Of a stretch of DNA of 64,000 nt, positions 16,982-23,486 are shown one piece after another (the stretch's first letter is position 1; each line of letters starts with the position of its first letter). The translations under genes were made by a program, and so were the position numbers. This stretch comes from Microbacterium sp. BR1 (GTDB taxonomy: Bacteria; Actinomycetota; Actinomycetes; Actinomycetales; Microbacteriaceae). A model generated the notes under the pieces. It was not told the origin of the DNA, did no database searches, and saw only the letters and a list, made by a program, of their open reading frames with translations. The DNA lies in NCBI RefSeq assembly GCF_002812725.1, contig NZ_NMUN01000004.1:744001-808000 (forward strand), given 5' to 3'.

Positions 16982-18064
16982 TCAGGTGCGCTCGGTGCCG
17001 CGGGGCAGGGCCAGTGCGATCTGCTCGGGGAGCGTCAGCGGCGTCTTCGTGACGATGTCGTGCACGAACGCCAGCTTGTGGCGCACGGGACCGACCAGCT
17101 CGAACGGGTAGAGGTCGGCCGAACCCATCGACCGGTTGATCCGGTTGAACGCTTGACTCATCCAGTCCCAGTCGGTCAGCAGGCGCTGGATCGGCTCATC
17201 CCGATAGCTCTCGAGCGGCACGACATCGGTGTCGCGGTTGGTGACGTCCGCATCCAGATGGATGCCGATCGCCGCGGCCGTCTGCAGAGTTCCGGTGATG
17301 TGCAGGTAATGCGCGAAGGTCTCGGCGAAGTCCTCCCACGGATGCATCGTGGCGTACTCCGAGATGAACGACGCGCTCCACCCCTCGGGCGCCCCGCGCG
17401 AGTAGTGGCGTGCGATCGCGTCCTGATAGCTTGCGCGCTCATCGCCGAACAGGGCCCGGCAACGGTCCCAGGCTTCGTCGCTCTGCAGAAGCACGTTCTG
17501 GAAGTAGTGCCCGACCTCGTGCCGCAAGTGCCCGAGCATCGTGCGATACGGCTCGCCCAGCCGCACCCGCAGCGCCTCGCGGCGGTCGTCGAGACTCTCG
17601 GCCAGATCGATCGTGATGATGCCATTGGCATGGCCGATCACGACGCGCTCCCCCGTCGACAGGCTCGAGACGAGGTCGAAGCCGAGTCCGCCCGGACGCA
17701 GATCCCACGGCACGATCGGCAGACCGAGCTCGCCGAGTTGCAGGATCAGCCGCCGCTTCGCCTCCTCGGTCTTGCCGAGCTTCTCGAGGGCGATCGTGTC
17801 GTTGCTGTCGGGTTGGCGGCGGGTGAGTCGACACGAGAAGCACTTTCCCGCCGGCGCATCCTCGCGCACCAACCAGTTGCAACCCCACCCCCGGTTCGAG
17901 CAGGTGTACCAGGTCACGCCCTCGATCACGGTGCGACCCTGACGGATGCCGTAGAACGAGCGGTCGAGCAGGTTGAAACCCAGCTCGCCCTCGCAGTTGG
18001 GACACACGAGCGTGCCGAGAAAGACGAAGTGGCGACAGTGCGGACAACGCGGGGCAGAACTCAC
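16982..18064 (-). CDS. Putative zinc-binding metallopeptidase with N-terminal zinc ribbons
   Basis: About 360 residues. The N-terminus has two Cys pairs, CPHCRH and CPNCEGELGF, then CSNRGWGCNW and CFSCRLTR, indicating zinc ribbons. The catalytic region has HEVGHYFQ (HEXXH) and a downstream EDFAETFAHYLHI segment that can supply the third ligand. This pattern matches the Peptidase_Mx-type putative metallopeptidases; the substrate is unknown. A GTG at 18103 would add 13 residues, but the Cys pairs in related proteins start close to the N-terminus, so GTG 18064 is preferred. It follows the deacetylase gene on the same strand and may be cotranscribed with it. Confidence 0.82.
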   Translation of the reverse strand: MSSAPRCPHCRHFVFLGTLVCPNCEGELGFNLLDRSFYGIRQGRTVIEGVTWYTCSNRGWGCNWLVREDAPAGKCFSCRLTRRQPDSNDTIALEKLGKTEEAKRRLILQLGELGLPIVPWDLRPGGLGFDLVSSLSTGERVVIGHANGIITIDLAESLDDRREALRVRLGEPYRTMLGHLRHEVGHYFQNVLLQSDEAWDRCRALFGDERASYQDAIARHYSRGAPEGWSASFISEYATMHPWEDFAETFAHYLHITGTLQTAAAIGIHLDADVTNRDTDVVPLESYRDEPIQRLLTDWDWMSQAFNRINRSMGSADLYPFELVGPVRHKLAFVHDIVTKTPLTLPEQIALALPRGTERT

Positions 18065-18107
18065 GTGTTCACCGTAGCGCCCGGAACCCGCCTCCTGAGC
18101 CACGGGA

Positions 18108-19637
18108 TCAGGGGGCGTAGCGGACGATTCCGCCGGGAATCTGGCCGTCGAACAGCTTCGACAGGGTCACGAGGCTGAAACCGCGATCGAGCAGACCGTC
18201 CAGGAGCTGCGGCATGATGCGTGACGTGCCCTCCTGAATGTCGTGCATGAGCATGATCGTGCCGATCCGCGGCGCGCTCACCGAGTACGCGAGCAGGTCG
18301 GCATCGGACGGGCCCGCCCAGTCACGCGTGTCGACGCTCCACAGGATCGCGGGCATGCCTGCGACGCCGAGCACACGTTCGTTCAGCGCACCATACGGCG
18401 GACGGAAGGTCGAGACGGCCTGACCCGACAGCGAACGCAGCAGATCCGCCGTCGACCGCAGCTCGGATGCGATCCGCTCGTCCGAGAGCGTCGTCAGGTC
18501 GGGGTGGTTCCAGGTGTGGTTGCCGATCTGGTGGCCCTCGGCCGAAACCCGTCGCACGGTGTCGGGCCGATTCTGCGCGTTGCGACCGAGCATGAAGAAG
18601 GTGGCCGCCGAGTGCCGGTCCCGAAGCGCGTCGAGGATGCCATCGGTCAGTCCGCTCGGTCCGTCATCCATCGTCAGGGCCATGCACGGCACGAGATCGC
18701 ACGATGTCCGGTCGAATGCTGCTCCGGCGGTCGTCGGGCCCGCGAAGGCACCCTGCGCATCGGCGATGACACGCCCGAACTCCGTGAGCGCGGGATCGTA
18801 GGACGTTCGGGGCAGCGAGACCCACACCGGATGCTCGGGGTCGGGCGTCTGCCAACCCGCGAGCCCCTCGAGCTCGGGCGCCGTGAACCCGACCGGCAGC
18901 GGAACGACCAGCTCGCCGTCGACGAACGACGCATCTTGGAGCGCCCTGCTCAGAGCCGCTCGCTGCTCGTCCGACGGCGGAGAAACCTGGCTCAGGCTGA
19001 GGCCGCCCGCGGCACGGCGCGCGACCGACACGACGTCCTCCCAGAGCAGGTCGTTCTGGCCGATCAACGAAGCACCGTCGCCGACCGCGCCGGTCGCGAC
19101 ATCCGCATAGAGGGTGACGATCTGGTCGGACTCGACCGCCGCGGCGGAACCGCGAACGACACGCAGGCGCTCTCCGAACGTCGATCCCGCGGCGTGCACG
19201 ATCTCACAGACGACGACGGTGTGCGAGTCGGTCGCCGCCCCGAGCAGGTCTGCGGCGGGCAGTGCAGTAACCCCCGCTACACACCCACGCTCACGCAGCG
19301 CCGCCTCGACACCGAAGACCTGTGGTTCGTAGCCGACCCCGGACGCGGTGGATTGTTCGCCGATCGCGGCACGCACCGTCGCCTCGACCGCATCGTTCAG
19401 CGGCTGCGACCCGGGCAGGTACGCCCAGCGCGCTTCCACGCGGACGGAGTCGTTCCGGATTCGCTGCGGTGCCAGGGCGATACCGGCGGGGTCGACCGGC
19501 GGTGGTGGTGCCGTCAGCATCCGTCCCACGACCGGCCACTGCGCCGGCGTCCACGACGGATCGGTATCGGGCGCGCATGCCGACAATCCGACGACCCCCA
19601 CGGCGACGAGCACCGCCGCCAGAACCCTGCGCGCCAT
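18108..19637 (-). CDS. Polysaccharide deacetylase (NodB homology, CE4) lipoprotein
   Basis: 509 residues. The lipobox GLSAC (Cys about 21) predicts a lipid-anchored extracellular protein. A large N-terminal domain of about 270 residues precedes the NodB domain. The CE4 motifs are present: TMDDGPS (metal-binding Asp pair), HTWNHP, RPPYG, DTRDW and LMHDI. This points to removal of acetyl groups from peptidoglycan or another surface glycan. Its start overlaps the stop of the upstream membrane-protein gene by one base (TGATG), so the two are translationally coupled. Confidence 0.9.
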   Translation of the reverse strand: MARRVLAAVLVAVGVVGLSACAPDTDPSWTPAQWPVVGRMLTAPPPPVDPAGIALAPQRIRNDSVRVEARWAYLPGSQPLNDAVEATVRAAIGEQSTASGVGYEPQVFGVEAALRERGCVAGVTALPAADLLGAATDSHTVVVCEIVHAAGSTFGERLRVVRGSAAAVESDQIVTLYADVATGAVGDGASLIGQNDLLWEDVVSVARRAAGGLSLSQVSPPSDEQRAALSRALQDASFVDGELVVPLPVGFTAPELEGLAGWQTPDPEHPVWVSLPRTSYDPALTEFGRVIADAQGAFAGPTTAGAAFDRTSCDLVPCMALTMDDGPSGLTDGILDALRDRHSAATFFMLGRNAQNRPDTVRRVSAEGHQIGNHTWNHPDLTTLSDERIASELRSTADLLRSLSGQAVSTFRPPYGALNERVLGVAGMPAILWSVDTRDWAGPSDADLLAYSVSAPRIGTIMLMHDIQEGTSRIMPQLLDGLLDRGFSLVTLSKLFDGQIPGGIVRYAP

Positions 19638-20335: not shown

Positions 20336-20674
20336 GTGTTCCAACAGACGAAGGACATGCGCGAAGCGCAGCCGTCCGTGTCGACACGCCCGCACGATCG
20401 CGAACGTCGGCGCGCACGGGGGCGTCGACTCGTCGCCCTCCTGACGGCCGTCGCCGTCGTCTGCACGCTTGCGGCGTTCGGGGTCGGTGTCACCGCGCAG
20501 ACGCGCGCCGAGGCACGGGTCGTCGAACTCGATGGGCGGATCACCCTGCTCCAGTTGCGCCTGCAGAACCACCTCGACCAGGTCGACGAGCTCACCACAC
20601 GCGCGGCAGAACGCCAGGCCAAGAACGACGACGCCCGCGCCGCACTGGACTCGACGGAAGGTTTTCTTCAGTGA
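20336..20674 (+). CDS. Small single-pass membrane coiled-coil protein
   Basis: 112 residues. A basic cytoplasmic N-terminus (RERRRARGRR) is followed by one membrane helix (about 32-54, LVALLTAVAVVCTLAAFGVG) and then a charged coiled coil to the C-terminus (ELDGRITLLQLRLQNHLDQV). The layout is like FtsL/DivIC-type or phage-shock-type bitopic proteins, but no family is recognised. The stop overlaps the start of the next gene as GTGA, and that gene has the same helix-plus-coiled-coil layout, so the two probably form a complex at the membrane. Confidence 0.75.
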   Translation: MFQQTKDMREAQPSVSTRPHDRERRRARGRRLVALLTAVAVVCTLAAFGVGVTAQTRAEARVVELDGRITLLQLRLQNHLDQVDELTTRAAERQAKNDDARAALDSTEGFLQ

Positions 20675-21615
20675 GGGCCTCGTCATGGACCCTGATCGTC
20701 GTTTCGGGAATCGCGGTCTTCACCATCACGATGGGGACGATCAAGGTCGCGGAACTCAACACCGTGGCCGATGCCCGCGAGTCACGGTTGCTCGCGCTCG
20801 AGACGAAGATCGACGATGCCGAATCGTCCTTGACCGACCTGCGCACCACGATCGACGGCGAGAACGCCGAGGCATCCGTCCTCGCCGAAGCGGGCAAGGA
20901 GCGAGTCGCCTTCGTCGAGGCGGTCGGCGCCCTGCGGACGGCGCTGGACAAGGCCGCGAACAAGGTCGACGTGGGCTCGCAGCGCCAGGCCGCGCTCGAT
21001 GCGCAGGCCACGGTCGCCGCGGCCCCCGCTGAGCCCGAAACCTACGTCGAACCGACCGCGGCCGTGCAGCGCGCGACGAGCGAGGTGGACGCGAAGGTCA
21101 ACGCGTACGAGGCCGAACAGCGTCGCAAGGCGGCCGCGGCCGCGGCGCGCTCATACTCCGCGCCCATCGCCCGAGGATCGGGCTCTGCCCCGTCGACCGG
21201 GGGCGGTGGCGGTGGCGGGGGCGGCGGCGGCTGGTTCGCCGAGATGCGCGCCATCCTGAACAACGTCGGCGGTGGCGGTTACGCCCTGGTCGAGTACGAC
21301 GGCAACTGCGGCGGCGTGACGGCCCCGGCCTGCGCGAGCAGCGGCGGGACCATCATGGTGTCGTCGGCGGTGGCGAACTGGCCGTACGTGACCAAGGTCT
21401 GGGGCATGACGCACGAGCTGGCGCACCAGTACCAGTTCCGGGTGTGGAAGCAGATGACCGCATCGCCGTCGTACCAGACGCTGTTCAACAAGAACCCCGA
21501 ACTGCTCGCGAATTGCATGGCCGCCACGCGCGGTGCGACGCAGGCGGCCGGCGGATGCGGCCCGGCTCAGCTCGGCTGGGCGGCGGGCATCTGGCAGGGC
21601 ATCGTCGCCGGCTGA
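20671..21615 (+). CDS. Membrane-anchored coiled-coil protein with poly-Gly hinge and HEXXH metallopeptidase-like domain
   Basis: 314 residues. An N-terminal membrane helix (about 7-25) is followed by a coiled coil (about 27-160), a run of 11 Gly (about 177-187) and a C-terminal domain of about 125 residues. That domain has MTHELAHQYQF (HELAH at 248-252) and, 25 residues on, NPELLANCMA. This resembles the ELQADC helix that supplies the third zinc ligand in YpfJ-like neutral zinc peptidases, giving E277 as candidate. Four Cys (213, 221, 282, 296) could form disulfides outside the cell. It is coupled to the preceding coiled-coil gene. Protease activity is inferred. Confidence 0.8.
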   Translation: MRASSWTLIVVSGIAVFTITMGTIKVAELNTVADARESRLLALETKIDDAESSLTDLRTTIDGENAEASVLAEAGKERVAFVEAVGALRTALDKAANKVDVGSQRQAALDAQATVAAAPAEPETYVEPTAAVQRATSEVDAKVNAYEAEQRRKAAAAAARSYSAPIARGSGSAPSTGGGGGGGGGGGWFAEMRAILNNVGGGGYALVEYDGNCGGVTAPACASSGGTIMVSSAVANWPYVTKVWGMTHELAHQYQFRVWKQMTASPSYQTLFNKNPELLANCMAATRGATQAAGGCGPAQLGWAAGIWQGIVAG

Positions 21616-21645: not shown

Positions 21646-21691
21646 GTCGCGACACGCCGTTCCACATGTTGCTGGAACGGCGTGTCGCGAC
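21646..21691. terminator. Long palindrome (convergent-end family, copy A)
   Basis: Arms 21646-21664 and 21673-21691 are a perfect 19-base inverted repeat beginning GTCGCGACACGCC, with an 8-base loop. It is followed by CGTTCGGCG. It lies between two convergent genes, so it can end transcription from both sides. It shares its core with the palindromes at 28042 and 42441. Confidence 0.8.
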
Positions 21692-21724: not shown

Positions 21725-23422
21725 CTACGGCGCCAACCACACGGTGGATGCGGGCGGGACCACACCCGGCGCCGCGCCCGGATCGCTCGAAAGGACGACC
21801 GACGACCCGGCCGCGTCCAGCGCGTGGGGTGCATCCCCGAAGTTCGTCACGACCTGCCACCCGTTCGGCCGCGCGAACCGGAGTACATCGGGCCGCCCGG
21901 TCTCGATCCACTCGAGGCCCTCGTCCGCCTGAACACGTGCGCGCACGGCGAGGGCCCGACGGTACAGAGCGAGTGTCGAGTCGGGATCATCGTCCTGGCG
22001 CTCGACCGCGTACTCCCCCATCCACGCCGGCTGCGGCAGGTGCGCTTCGCCCGCGCCGAAACCGAATGACGGACCGGATGCCTCCCAGGGCAGCGGCACC
22101 CGGCATCCGTCCCGTCCGAGGTCGGCACCGGGGCTCCGGAAGAATGTCGGGTCCTGGCGCTGCCCGTCCTCGATCTCGGCGACCTCGTGCAGGCCGAGCT
22201 CTTCGCCCTGGTACAGGTATGCGGATCCCGGAAGACCGAGGACGAACAGCGTCGCCGCCCGCGCGCGTCTCTCCCCGCGTTCACGGTCGAGCTTCGGGTC
22301 GGTGCCCCCGGAGAGAAGCCACTCCTGGCCGTGCTTGCGCGCGGGACGGCCATCGGCGCCTCGCTCGGCGTCGGGGAGACCGTATCGGGTTGCGTGGCGC
22401 ACGACGTCGTGGTTCGACAGCACCCAGGTGCTGGACGACCCCGACGACTGCGCCAGCTCGAGGTTCGCGGTCACGATCTCGCGAAACTGCGACGCGTCGA
22501 AGTCGGCCTCGAGCAGGTCGAAGTTGAATGCCTGTCCCAGGCTCTCCGAGCTGGCGTAGAGCGGCACGCGCGATCGGTCGACCCACGCTTCCGCGACGGC
22601 CGTACGCGGAGGGTCGTACGAATCGAACACGGCCCGCCACTCGGCATACACCTCGTGCACGTCGTCGCGGTCGATCGTGGGGTGCTGTCCATCACGGGGC
22701 ATGGCGTCGAGCTCGGCCTGCGTGGGCAGCACGTCCGCGAGGTCCTTCGTGAGCATGTGCGCAACGTCGATACGGAATCCGTCGACACCGCGGTCGGACC
22801 AGAATCGCAGGGTCCGCACGAAGTCGGCGCGCACCTCGGGGTTCGCCCAGTTCAGATCAGGCTGCTCGACCGCGAAATGGTGCAGGTACCACTGACCGTC
22901 GGGTACTCGTTCCCAGGCGGATCCGCCGAAGGCCGAGACCCAATCGCTTGGCGGGAGCGAGCCATCCGGTCCCGTCCCCTCACGGAAGATGTAGCGATCT
23001 CGGGCGGGCGACCCGGGCTCCGCGAGCAGCGCTTCCTGGAACCACTCGTGCAGATCGGACGTGTGGTTCGGCACGATGTCCACGACGACCCGGATGCCCC
23101 GCTCGTGCAACGCCGCCACCATGTGGTCGAAGTCCTCGAGAGTCCCGAGTTTGGGATCCACGTCCCGGTAGTCCGCGACGTCGTACCCGCCGTCCGCCAG
23201 CGCCGACGGATAGAACGGGCTCAACCACACGGCATCGATCCCGAGTTCGTCGAGGTAGTCGACGCGGGAGGTGATCCCCGCGATGTCACCGAGCCCATTC
23301 CCATCCAGATCCGCGAAGCTCCGTGGGTACACCTGGTACACGACCGCCTGGCGCCACCAGGGCGCGGCCTCGGCTGACGCCGTTCGACGGATTTCGGGGG
23401 CCGGGGAGACTGCGTGACTCAT
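21725..23422 (-). CDS. GH13 alpha-glucosidase / oligo-1,6-glucosidase-type enzyme
   Basis: 565 residues, cytoplasmic. The GH13 motifs are DIVPNH, the nucleophile Asp in GFRIDVAHML, the acid/base Glu in AVAEAWVD and LSNHDVV. The opening WWRQAVVYQVYPRSFAD and the domain B length fit oligo-1,6-glucosidases, trehalulose/sucrose-type and alpha-glucosidases. The start at 23422 is preferred because GAAAGGA lies upstream; an ATG at 23455 would add 11 residues. It is the last gene of a minus-strand sugar uptake operon and should hydrolyse the imported alpha-glucoside. The exact linkage is unknown. Confidence 0.9.
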   Translation of the reverse strand: MSHAVSPAPEIRRTASAEAAPWWRQAVVYQVYPRSFADLDGNGLGDIAGITSRVDYLDELGIDAVWLSPFYPSALADGGYDVADYRDVDPKLGTLEDFDHMVAALHERGIRVVVDIVPNHTSDLHEWFQEALLAEPGSPARDRYIFREGTGPDGSLPPSDWVSAFGGSAWERVPDGQWYLHHFAVEQPDLNWANPEVRADFVRTLRFWSDRGVDGFRIDVAHMLTKDLADVLPTQAELDAMPRDGQHPTIDRDDVHEVYAEWRAVFDSYDPPRTAVAEAWVDRSRVPLYASSESLGQAFNFDLLEADFDASQFREIVTANLELAQSSGSSSTWVLSNHDVVRHATRYGLPDAERGADGRPARKHGQEWLLSGGTDPKLDRERGERRARAATLFVLGLPGSAYLYQGEELGLHEVAEIEDGQRQDPTFFRSPGADLGRDGCRVPLPWEASGPSFGFGAGEAHLPQPAWMGEYAVERQDDDPDSTLALYRRALAVRARVQADEGLEWIETGRPDVLRFARPNGWQVVTNFGDAPHALDAAGSSVVLSSDPGAAPGVVPPASTVWLAP

Positions 23423-23486
23423 CAGAGAGCGAGTCCTTTCTTCGGGGGCGGTCATGCGGTTGTGCAGTATGCGCGCGACACGGGCC

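Follow-up and report, generated by a model that had tools for sequence, protein, structure and literature searches.

A conserved two-gene unit of Microbacterium encoding a putative membrane-tethered zinc peptidase and a small coiled-coil protein

Introduction

The minigluzincins are counted among the gluzincins. Gluzincins are characterized by HEXXH and a Glu 20–60 residues downstream, and exchange of the Asp in their EXXXD motif for Ala abolishes function in BlaR1 and in a rat dipeptidyl peptidase (PMC3356374); in MecR1, the gluzincin core is embedded in the membrane (PMC6925264). A protein of the YpfJ family (PF04228) is a protease with one zinc that is inactivated by mutation of His and Glu and inhibited by DTT (PMC3269727), and the FP0506 elastase of Flavobacterium psychrophilum has PF04228 as its first HHpred hit (PMC6414381).

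Here we describe two adjacent genes, A and B, in a 64,000-nucleotide stretch of the Microbacterium sp. BR1 genome (contig NZ_NMUN01000004.1, positions 744,001 to 808,000; hereafter the window). An earlier note made from the letters alone had proposed that they encode an extracellular protease on a flexible arm and a small partner protein. A literature search, with most subscription journals outside its reach, found no description of such a pair. The A-B unit is real and conserved, and it has no family name in the libraries that we searched.

Results

Layout of the gene pair

Both genes score as coding and they overlap by 4 nt; the earlier note's reading of two coupled genes, whose products both have a single membrane helix and a coiled coil, is borne out (Table 1). 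The Gly run, HELAH and PELLANCMA that it had pointed out are all found in B where it had placed them, with E277, part of PELLANCMA, 25 residues after H252. The Cys of B lie at residues 213, 221, 282 and 296.

Table 1. Features of the A-B locus, in window coordinates.
Feature	Position	Strand	Remarks
Gene A	20336..20674	+	GTG start, 112 aa; N-terminus basic, then a single membrane helix, a coiled coil and a conserved motif at the C-terminus
A membrane helix, predicted (~residues 32-53)	20429..20494	+	Hydropathy maximum; limits approximate, by reading
A C-terminal tail DSTEGFLQ	20648..20671	+	Family pattern present at 44/45 loci
Gene B	20671..21615	+	GTG start, 314 aa; single membrane helix followed by a coil, a helical stalk, a linker and the HExxH domain
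B membrane helix, predicted (~residues 7-27)	20689..20751	+	Hydropathy; limits approximate
B membrane-proximal coiled coil (~residues 28-80)	20752..20910	+	Same length as A's coil; low-confidence helix 18-96 in AlphaFold 2
B helical stalk (~residues 81-159)	20911..21147	+	Low-confidence model; KVD motif recurring in relatives by reading
B Gly11 linker (residues 177-187)	21199..21231	+	Not conserved among relatives
B putative zinc peptidase domain (residues 188-314)	21232..21612	+	Four conserved Cys
B HELAH (residues 248-252)	21412..21426	+	Putative zinc ligands and catalytic Glu
B ELLANC (residues 277-282)	21499..21516	+	Putative third ligand E277; Asn where Asp is usual
Perfect 19-bp inverted repeat	21646..21691	.	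Likely bidirectional terminator 3' of B

The inverted repeat lies between B and a convergent gene (21725-23455) and folds at -42.8 kcal/mol (z -6.1). On the minus strand, 2.2 kb from A, is a second putative zinc peptidase (16982-18103; PF15887, Peptidase_Mx, with a zinc ribbon), and 18108-19637 (minus strand) encodes a polysaccharide deacetylase (PF01522) that, with its neighbours, keeps its place beside A-B in M. lacus.

Distribution and pairing

The B domain was found in 44 copies in 43 of 198 sampled Microbacterium genomes (14-row domain profile, E<=1e-55), with weak matches in two further genomes of the sample. Gene A was detected in 42 of the 198 (10-row A profile, E<=1e-5), all of which also have B, leaving a single B-bearing genome (G192) in which A was not detected at this threshold; nor was A found, at E<=1e-5, in the 155 genomes that lack B, seven of which gave weak partial matches to the coil part of the A profile (E 1.7e-4 to 0.0098). 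The search for homologous pairs that the earlier note had called for showed that B is preceded on its own strand by an A-type gene at 44 of 45 distinct loci. Genes were called at 33 loci and B was recognised in 30 of these, 28 of them in the genus cluster; at 27 of the 28, A stands immediately before B (gap -4 to 22 nt), and it does so across several unrelated gene contexts. One lineage (L006/L047) has B without A. Co-occurrence (42 of 43 genomes) and adjacency strongly support the small protein as a partner of B, as had been proposed.

In a domain tree of 46 rows, whose root is unsettled, whose support is patchy and which has several long branches, two changes are enough to account for the paired state, and they can be read as a single gain plus a loss in L006. 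Five sequences (L113-L116 and L118) were read and excluded from alignments and tree; three further matches (L002, L003 and L004) are of low complexity, and L041 is without HExxH.

At family level, the genus domain profile matched 8 of 299 Microbacteriaceae genomes, and a 4-row profile of distant relatives matched 19 of the 299, several weakly. Of 396 genomes from the phylum, five were matched by the genus profile: two belong to the genus, and three gave short matches to another HExxH protein. Matches L043-L045, which are short and hit a different type of HExxH protein that reads as YgjP-like, were left unused. Viral contigs gave no match to the B domain alignment. The relatives that we read are single genes, many encoding a membrane helix and a coil, followed by HExxH and ExxADC or a near form; their Cys order is that of the paired B, several have the Asp of ExxAD, and the 97% obtained in profile comparison of paired and single-gene domains supports their relation. 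N-terminal to the domain, by contrast, paired and single-gene B do not match (1.2%), so that relatedness is established for the domain only. Two single-gene relatives occur in Microbacterium itself (L181 and L182, with HE[FY]AH and ETMADC), and four, in a small-genome genus, lie directly downstream of a gene reading as peptidyl-tRNA hydrolase (L105, L106, L108 and L109). Two coil-less distant relatives (L112 and L117, with HECGH/HECSH and EHMADC/EHAADC) suggest a wider unnamed family.

The HExxH domain of B

Neither A nor B has a family match in Pfam, NCBIfam or PHROGs. B has no match to PF04228 at the Pfam model cut-off, and there are 0 PF04228 matches in the whole genome of the window, while 4 of 14 control genomes match. 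A PDB sequence search gave no result for B, and the same was true of a YpfJ protein; matches of B residues 6-50 to an unnamed PHROG (E 0.0047) and to an Rz-like spanin (E 0.03-0.07), among the lowest E-values of the family searches, are below use.

In profile comparisons, the wider family scored 93.6-95.4% with YpfJ/PF04228. For M48 and M78, represented by shallower alignments of 4 and 6 rows, the scores were 38-78% and 46-89%, respectively (usable rows came from 4 of 4 loci tried for M48 and from 6 of 11 for M78); the overall range for Peptidase_M48 (PF01435) against its 4-row alignment was 27-78%, and an earlier alignment of four relatives had scored 72-89% with YpfJ. The genus family taken alone does not discriminate, scoring 25-44% throughout (27% with M48 and 43% with M78, like YpfJ). 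A rival reading places B not with YpfJ but with M60-like, M48-like or M78-like peptidases, given these undiscriminating scores, the 89% reached by M78 with the widest alignment, and the fact that the sole Pfam peptidase match of B is to Peptidase_M60 (PF13402; E 0.0035, 17.4 bits, versus a cut-off of 25.8). However, the M60 match covers residues 230-260 only, the wider family scores highest with YpfJ, and the two have a common four-Cys order, all of which makes another family a distinctly unlikely home for B.

That order (two Cys before HExxH, one after ExxA[D/N] and one in the tail) occurs in all 45 distinct B domains, namely the 44 genus copies found by profile and the M. lacus copy (L034). 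Fifteen canonical YpfJ proteins all have two Cys before HExxH; 13 of them also carry the Cys of ADC together with a tail Cys, and the remaining two proteins (L077 and L078) have neither, which points to a disulfide between the ADC Cys and the tail Cys in that family. HExxH with its catalytic Glu, the second Glu with its fixed distance from HExxH, ANC and the four Cys are likewise invariant in 45 of 45 B domains, so that the motif is more than a chance occurrence, a count to be read with the fact that the pattern used to collect them itself requires HExxH and E..A..C; that pattern recovered every copy found by profile, and there is thus no B domain copy without these elements. Homologues lacking the motif had been named as evidence that would tell against the putative metal site, and because the homologues keep it, that reading survives. 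The Asp position is a different matter. The Glu at 25 residues and the ExxA are invariant, yet the fourth residue after the Glu is Asn in 45 of 45 domains, which departs both from the EXXXD of gluzincins and from the ExxAD that follows HExxH in YpfJ. The YpfJ likeness seen in the earlier note thus holds for the wider family's profile scores and for the four-Cys order, but not for PF04228 itself, the Asp, or the genus family alone, which does not discriminate. Since B has no family in Pfam or NCBIfam, we call its domain gluzincin-like, and YpfJ-like in working, and a member of neither. AlphaFold 2 models of the domain and of whole B, built on two near-identical rows only, reached pLDDT values of 44 and 52; their low-confidence order of helix, strands, active helix and Glu helix is compatible with a gluzincin fold.

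The one named relative found is M. lacus (NZ_NMUM01000005.1, locus L034, 86% identity). Between it and the window, dN/dS is 0.134 for A and 0.084 for whole B; within B, the first 180 codons give 0.139 and the domain alone gives 0.017, so that the domain is the part most guarded by selection. The flexible long-Gly arm of the earlier note fares less well: among 37 B-type proteins read, only those of the window (11) and of L051 (10) have a Gly run longer than 4, and the run is not conserved.

The uniform Asn could indicate that B is a pseudo-peptidase, in which the zinc site is kept as a structural or binding unit (its ligands being, for example, proteins or parts of the wall) and A is a partner in structure, because Asp to Ala exchange abolishes activity in related enzymes (PMC3356374). 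Against this stand the invariance of the catalytic Glu of HExxH in 45 of 45 domains and the dN/dS of 0.017. Asn, moreover, can still hydrogen-bond a ligand His. We regard a pseudo-peptidase as unlikely, and B is probably an active zinc peptidase.

Gene A, its coil and its tail

Hydrophobic heptads are well marked in A: the score of the window's protein was reached by 10 of 2000 column shuffles, and that of 18 non-redundant A sequences by none of 2000. The protein closes with a family pattern, S/T/D shortly before a Gly and then two hydrophobics, that stands at the exact C-terminus in 43 of the 44 A found and 7 residues before the end in the other. As first written, with a residue required between S/T and Gly, the pattern was found at 37 of 45 loci, and in widened form at 44 of 45; it ends 111 of 7514 open segments longer than 55 aa at these loci, A copies included. 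Codon changes in the tail are synonymous or exchange one hydrophobic residue for another, so it is as protein that the tail is maintained; an origin as a ribosome site was rejected on the same grounds.

Its tail being among the most conserved stretches of A (10-row profile) and at the very C-terminus in 43 of 44, and A never having been found without B in 198 genomes (E<=1e-5), A might be a regulator rather than a scaffold, its hydrophobic tail docking on the stalk or domain of B and keeping the peptidase inactive until the coil is altered by a signal. Yet A has no sensor domain by Pfam, NCBIfam or PHROGs, its tail aligns not with the active site of B but with the beginning of the stalk, and one lineage does without A; we consider regulation of this kind rather unlikely.

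Heptads are present in B as well (23 of 2000 shuffles for the window's protein, 12 of 2000 for 21 non-redundant B). Tested singly, 10 of 27 paired B and 6 of 12 single-gene B pass, so the coil of B is no mark of pairing, and the notion that B loses its coil where A is lost was rejected, paired and single-gene proteins scoring alike. In the first heptad test, L047 scored 0.078, which 2000 of 2000 shuffles reached. From membrane helix to end motif, the median span is 64.5 residues in A and 65.5 in B (n = 27). No covariation of the two lengths was seen (rho 0.002, n = 27) in this set, in which the start of A had been called too short in two or three cases. Profile comparison of A with the N-terminus of B gave 87.5% over 82 columns, and none of 60 heptad-block shuffles reached that score; with the B alignment reversed the value was 51.5%, so part of the match is composition. 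Against the N-terminus of the single-gene relatives, A scored 27.9%, and 4 of 60 shuffles reached this.

Neighbouring genes

At the gene-called loci, the neighbours of A-B give no substrate. In one syntenic clade, copZ- and copA-like genes (named by reading) adjoin A-B at 8 of 20 loci, from which one might suppose a copper-stress protease; such genes are absent within seven genes at the clade's other loci and in the other contexts examined, the window included, and a presence at only these 8 led us to reject the copper link as highly improbable.

Discussion

Our preferred reading, to which we give a probability of about 0.6, is that B is a gluzincin-like peptidase, tethered as a type II membrane protein, which a coiled coil of A and B keeps within the cell-wall zone. 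Both proteins would form one membrane complex, each anchored N-in by its single helix, and their coils of equal length (~65 residues from membrane helix to end motif) would pair in parallel outside the membrane, A ending there with its hydrophobic tail and B extending through its helical stalk and then a flexible linker into a domain of ~127 residues that carries disulfide bonds. That domain would bind zinc through H248, H252 and E277, with E249 hydrolysing peptide bonds; coil and stalk would hold it in the wall zone, several nanometres above the membrane by a reckoning from lengths, and the linker would let it swing, so that B would act as a tethered endopeptidase cutting proteins close to the membrane. 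Of this model, the genes, their conservation, the near-obligate pairing, the motif with its Cys pattern and the matching coil lengths are observed, whereas topology, disulfides, zinc binding, catalysis, A-B contact and the origin and role of A are inferred. Because of the four invariant Cys and the predicted N-in anchors, the domain very probably lies outside the membrane, and contact between A and B is likely.

As for the small protein, A may be a stub of B in a parallel heteromeric coil, and possibly a copy of it: it may derive from a truncated copy of the membrane-coil segment of B, and may serve to assemble, place or restrain B. A fuller version, in which A is a duplicated, truncated copy of the protease's membrane-coil stalk, gained once in Microbacterium from single-gene ancestors and now an obligate, perhaps gating, partner, is more speculative and in our view rather unlikely.

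Together with its relatives, B makes up an unnamed group of putative membrane-tethered gluzincin-like enzymes in several Microbacteriaceae genera, unrecognised by the Pfam and NCBIfam copies searched. Since paired and single-gene versions both occur naturally, the contribution of a coiled-coil partner to a tethered protease can be addressed by direct comparison, and the Asn at a normally essential Asp makes the group suited to asking which parts of the gluzincin site are indispensable.

Among known systems, the wall enzymes that join a coil to a hydrolase (e.g., M23 with a coiled coil) resemble B in having a coil, a Gly-rich linker and a catalytic domain, but that domain is a different one. 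The window's own genome holds an open reading frame with a coiled coil, a poly-Gly linker and, by reading, an M23-like end (L002; G000:C9, ~104861-105169). Gluzincins such as thermolysin, M48 and M56 (BlaR1/MecR1) are alike in the spaced Glu, at 25 residues in B and 37 in BlaR1 (PMC3356374), whereas B has EXXXN instead of EXXXD, and four conserved Cys; unlike MecR1, with its core inside the membrane (PMC6925264), B carries its domain on a predicted stalk. FP0506 is by description a predicted surface gluzincin with HExxH and ExxA, like B, but is a lipoprotein (PMC6414381). With YpfJ (PF04228, e.g., KPN_02809), B has in common a Cys pair, a strand, the HExxH helix, the ExxADC region and a last Cys, in the same four-Cys order; it differs in its Asn for Asp, in being without the long C-terminal half (GDDxIQ...HGSSxQR..WF, by reading) and a Pfam match, and in adding to the catalytic domain a coil, a stalk and a partner.
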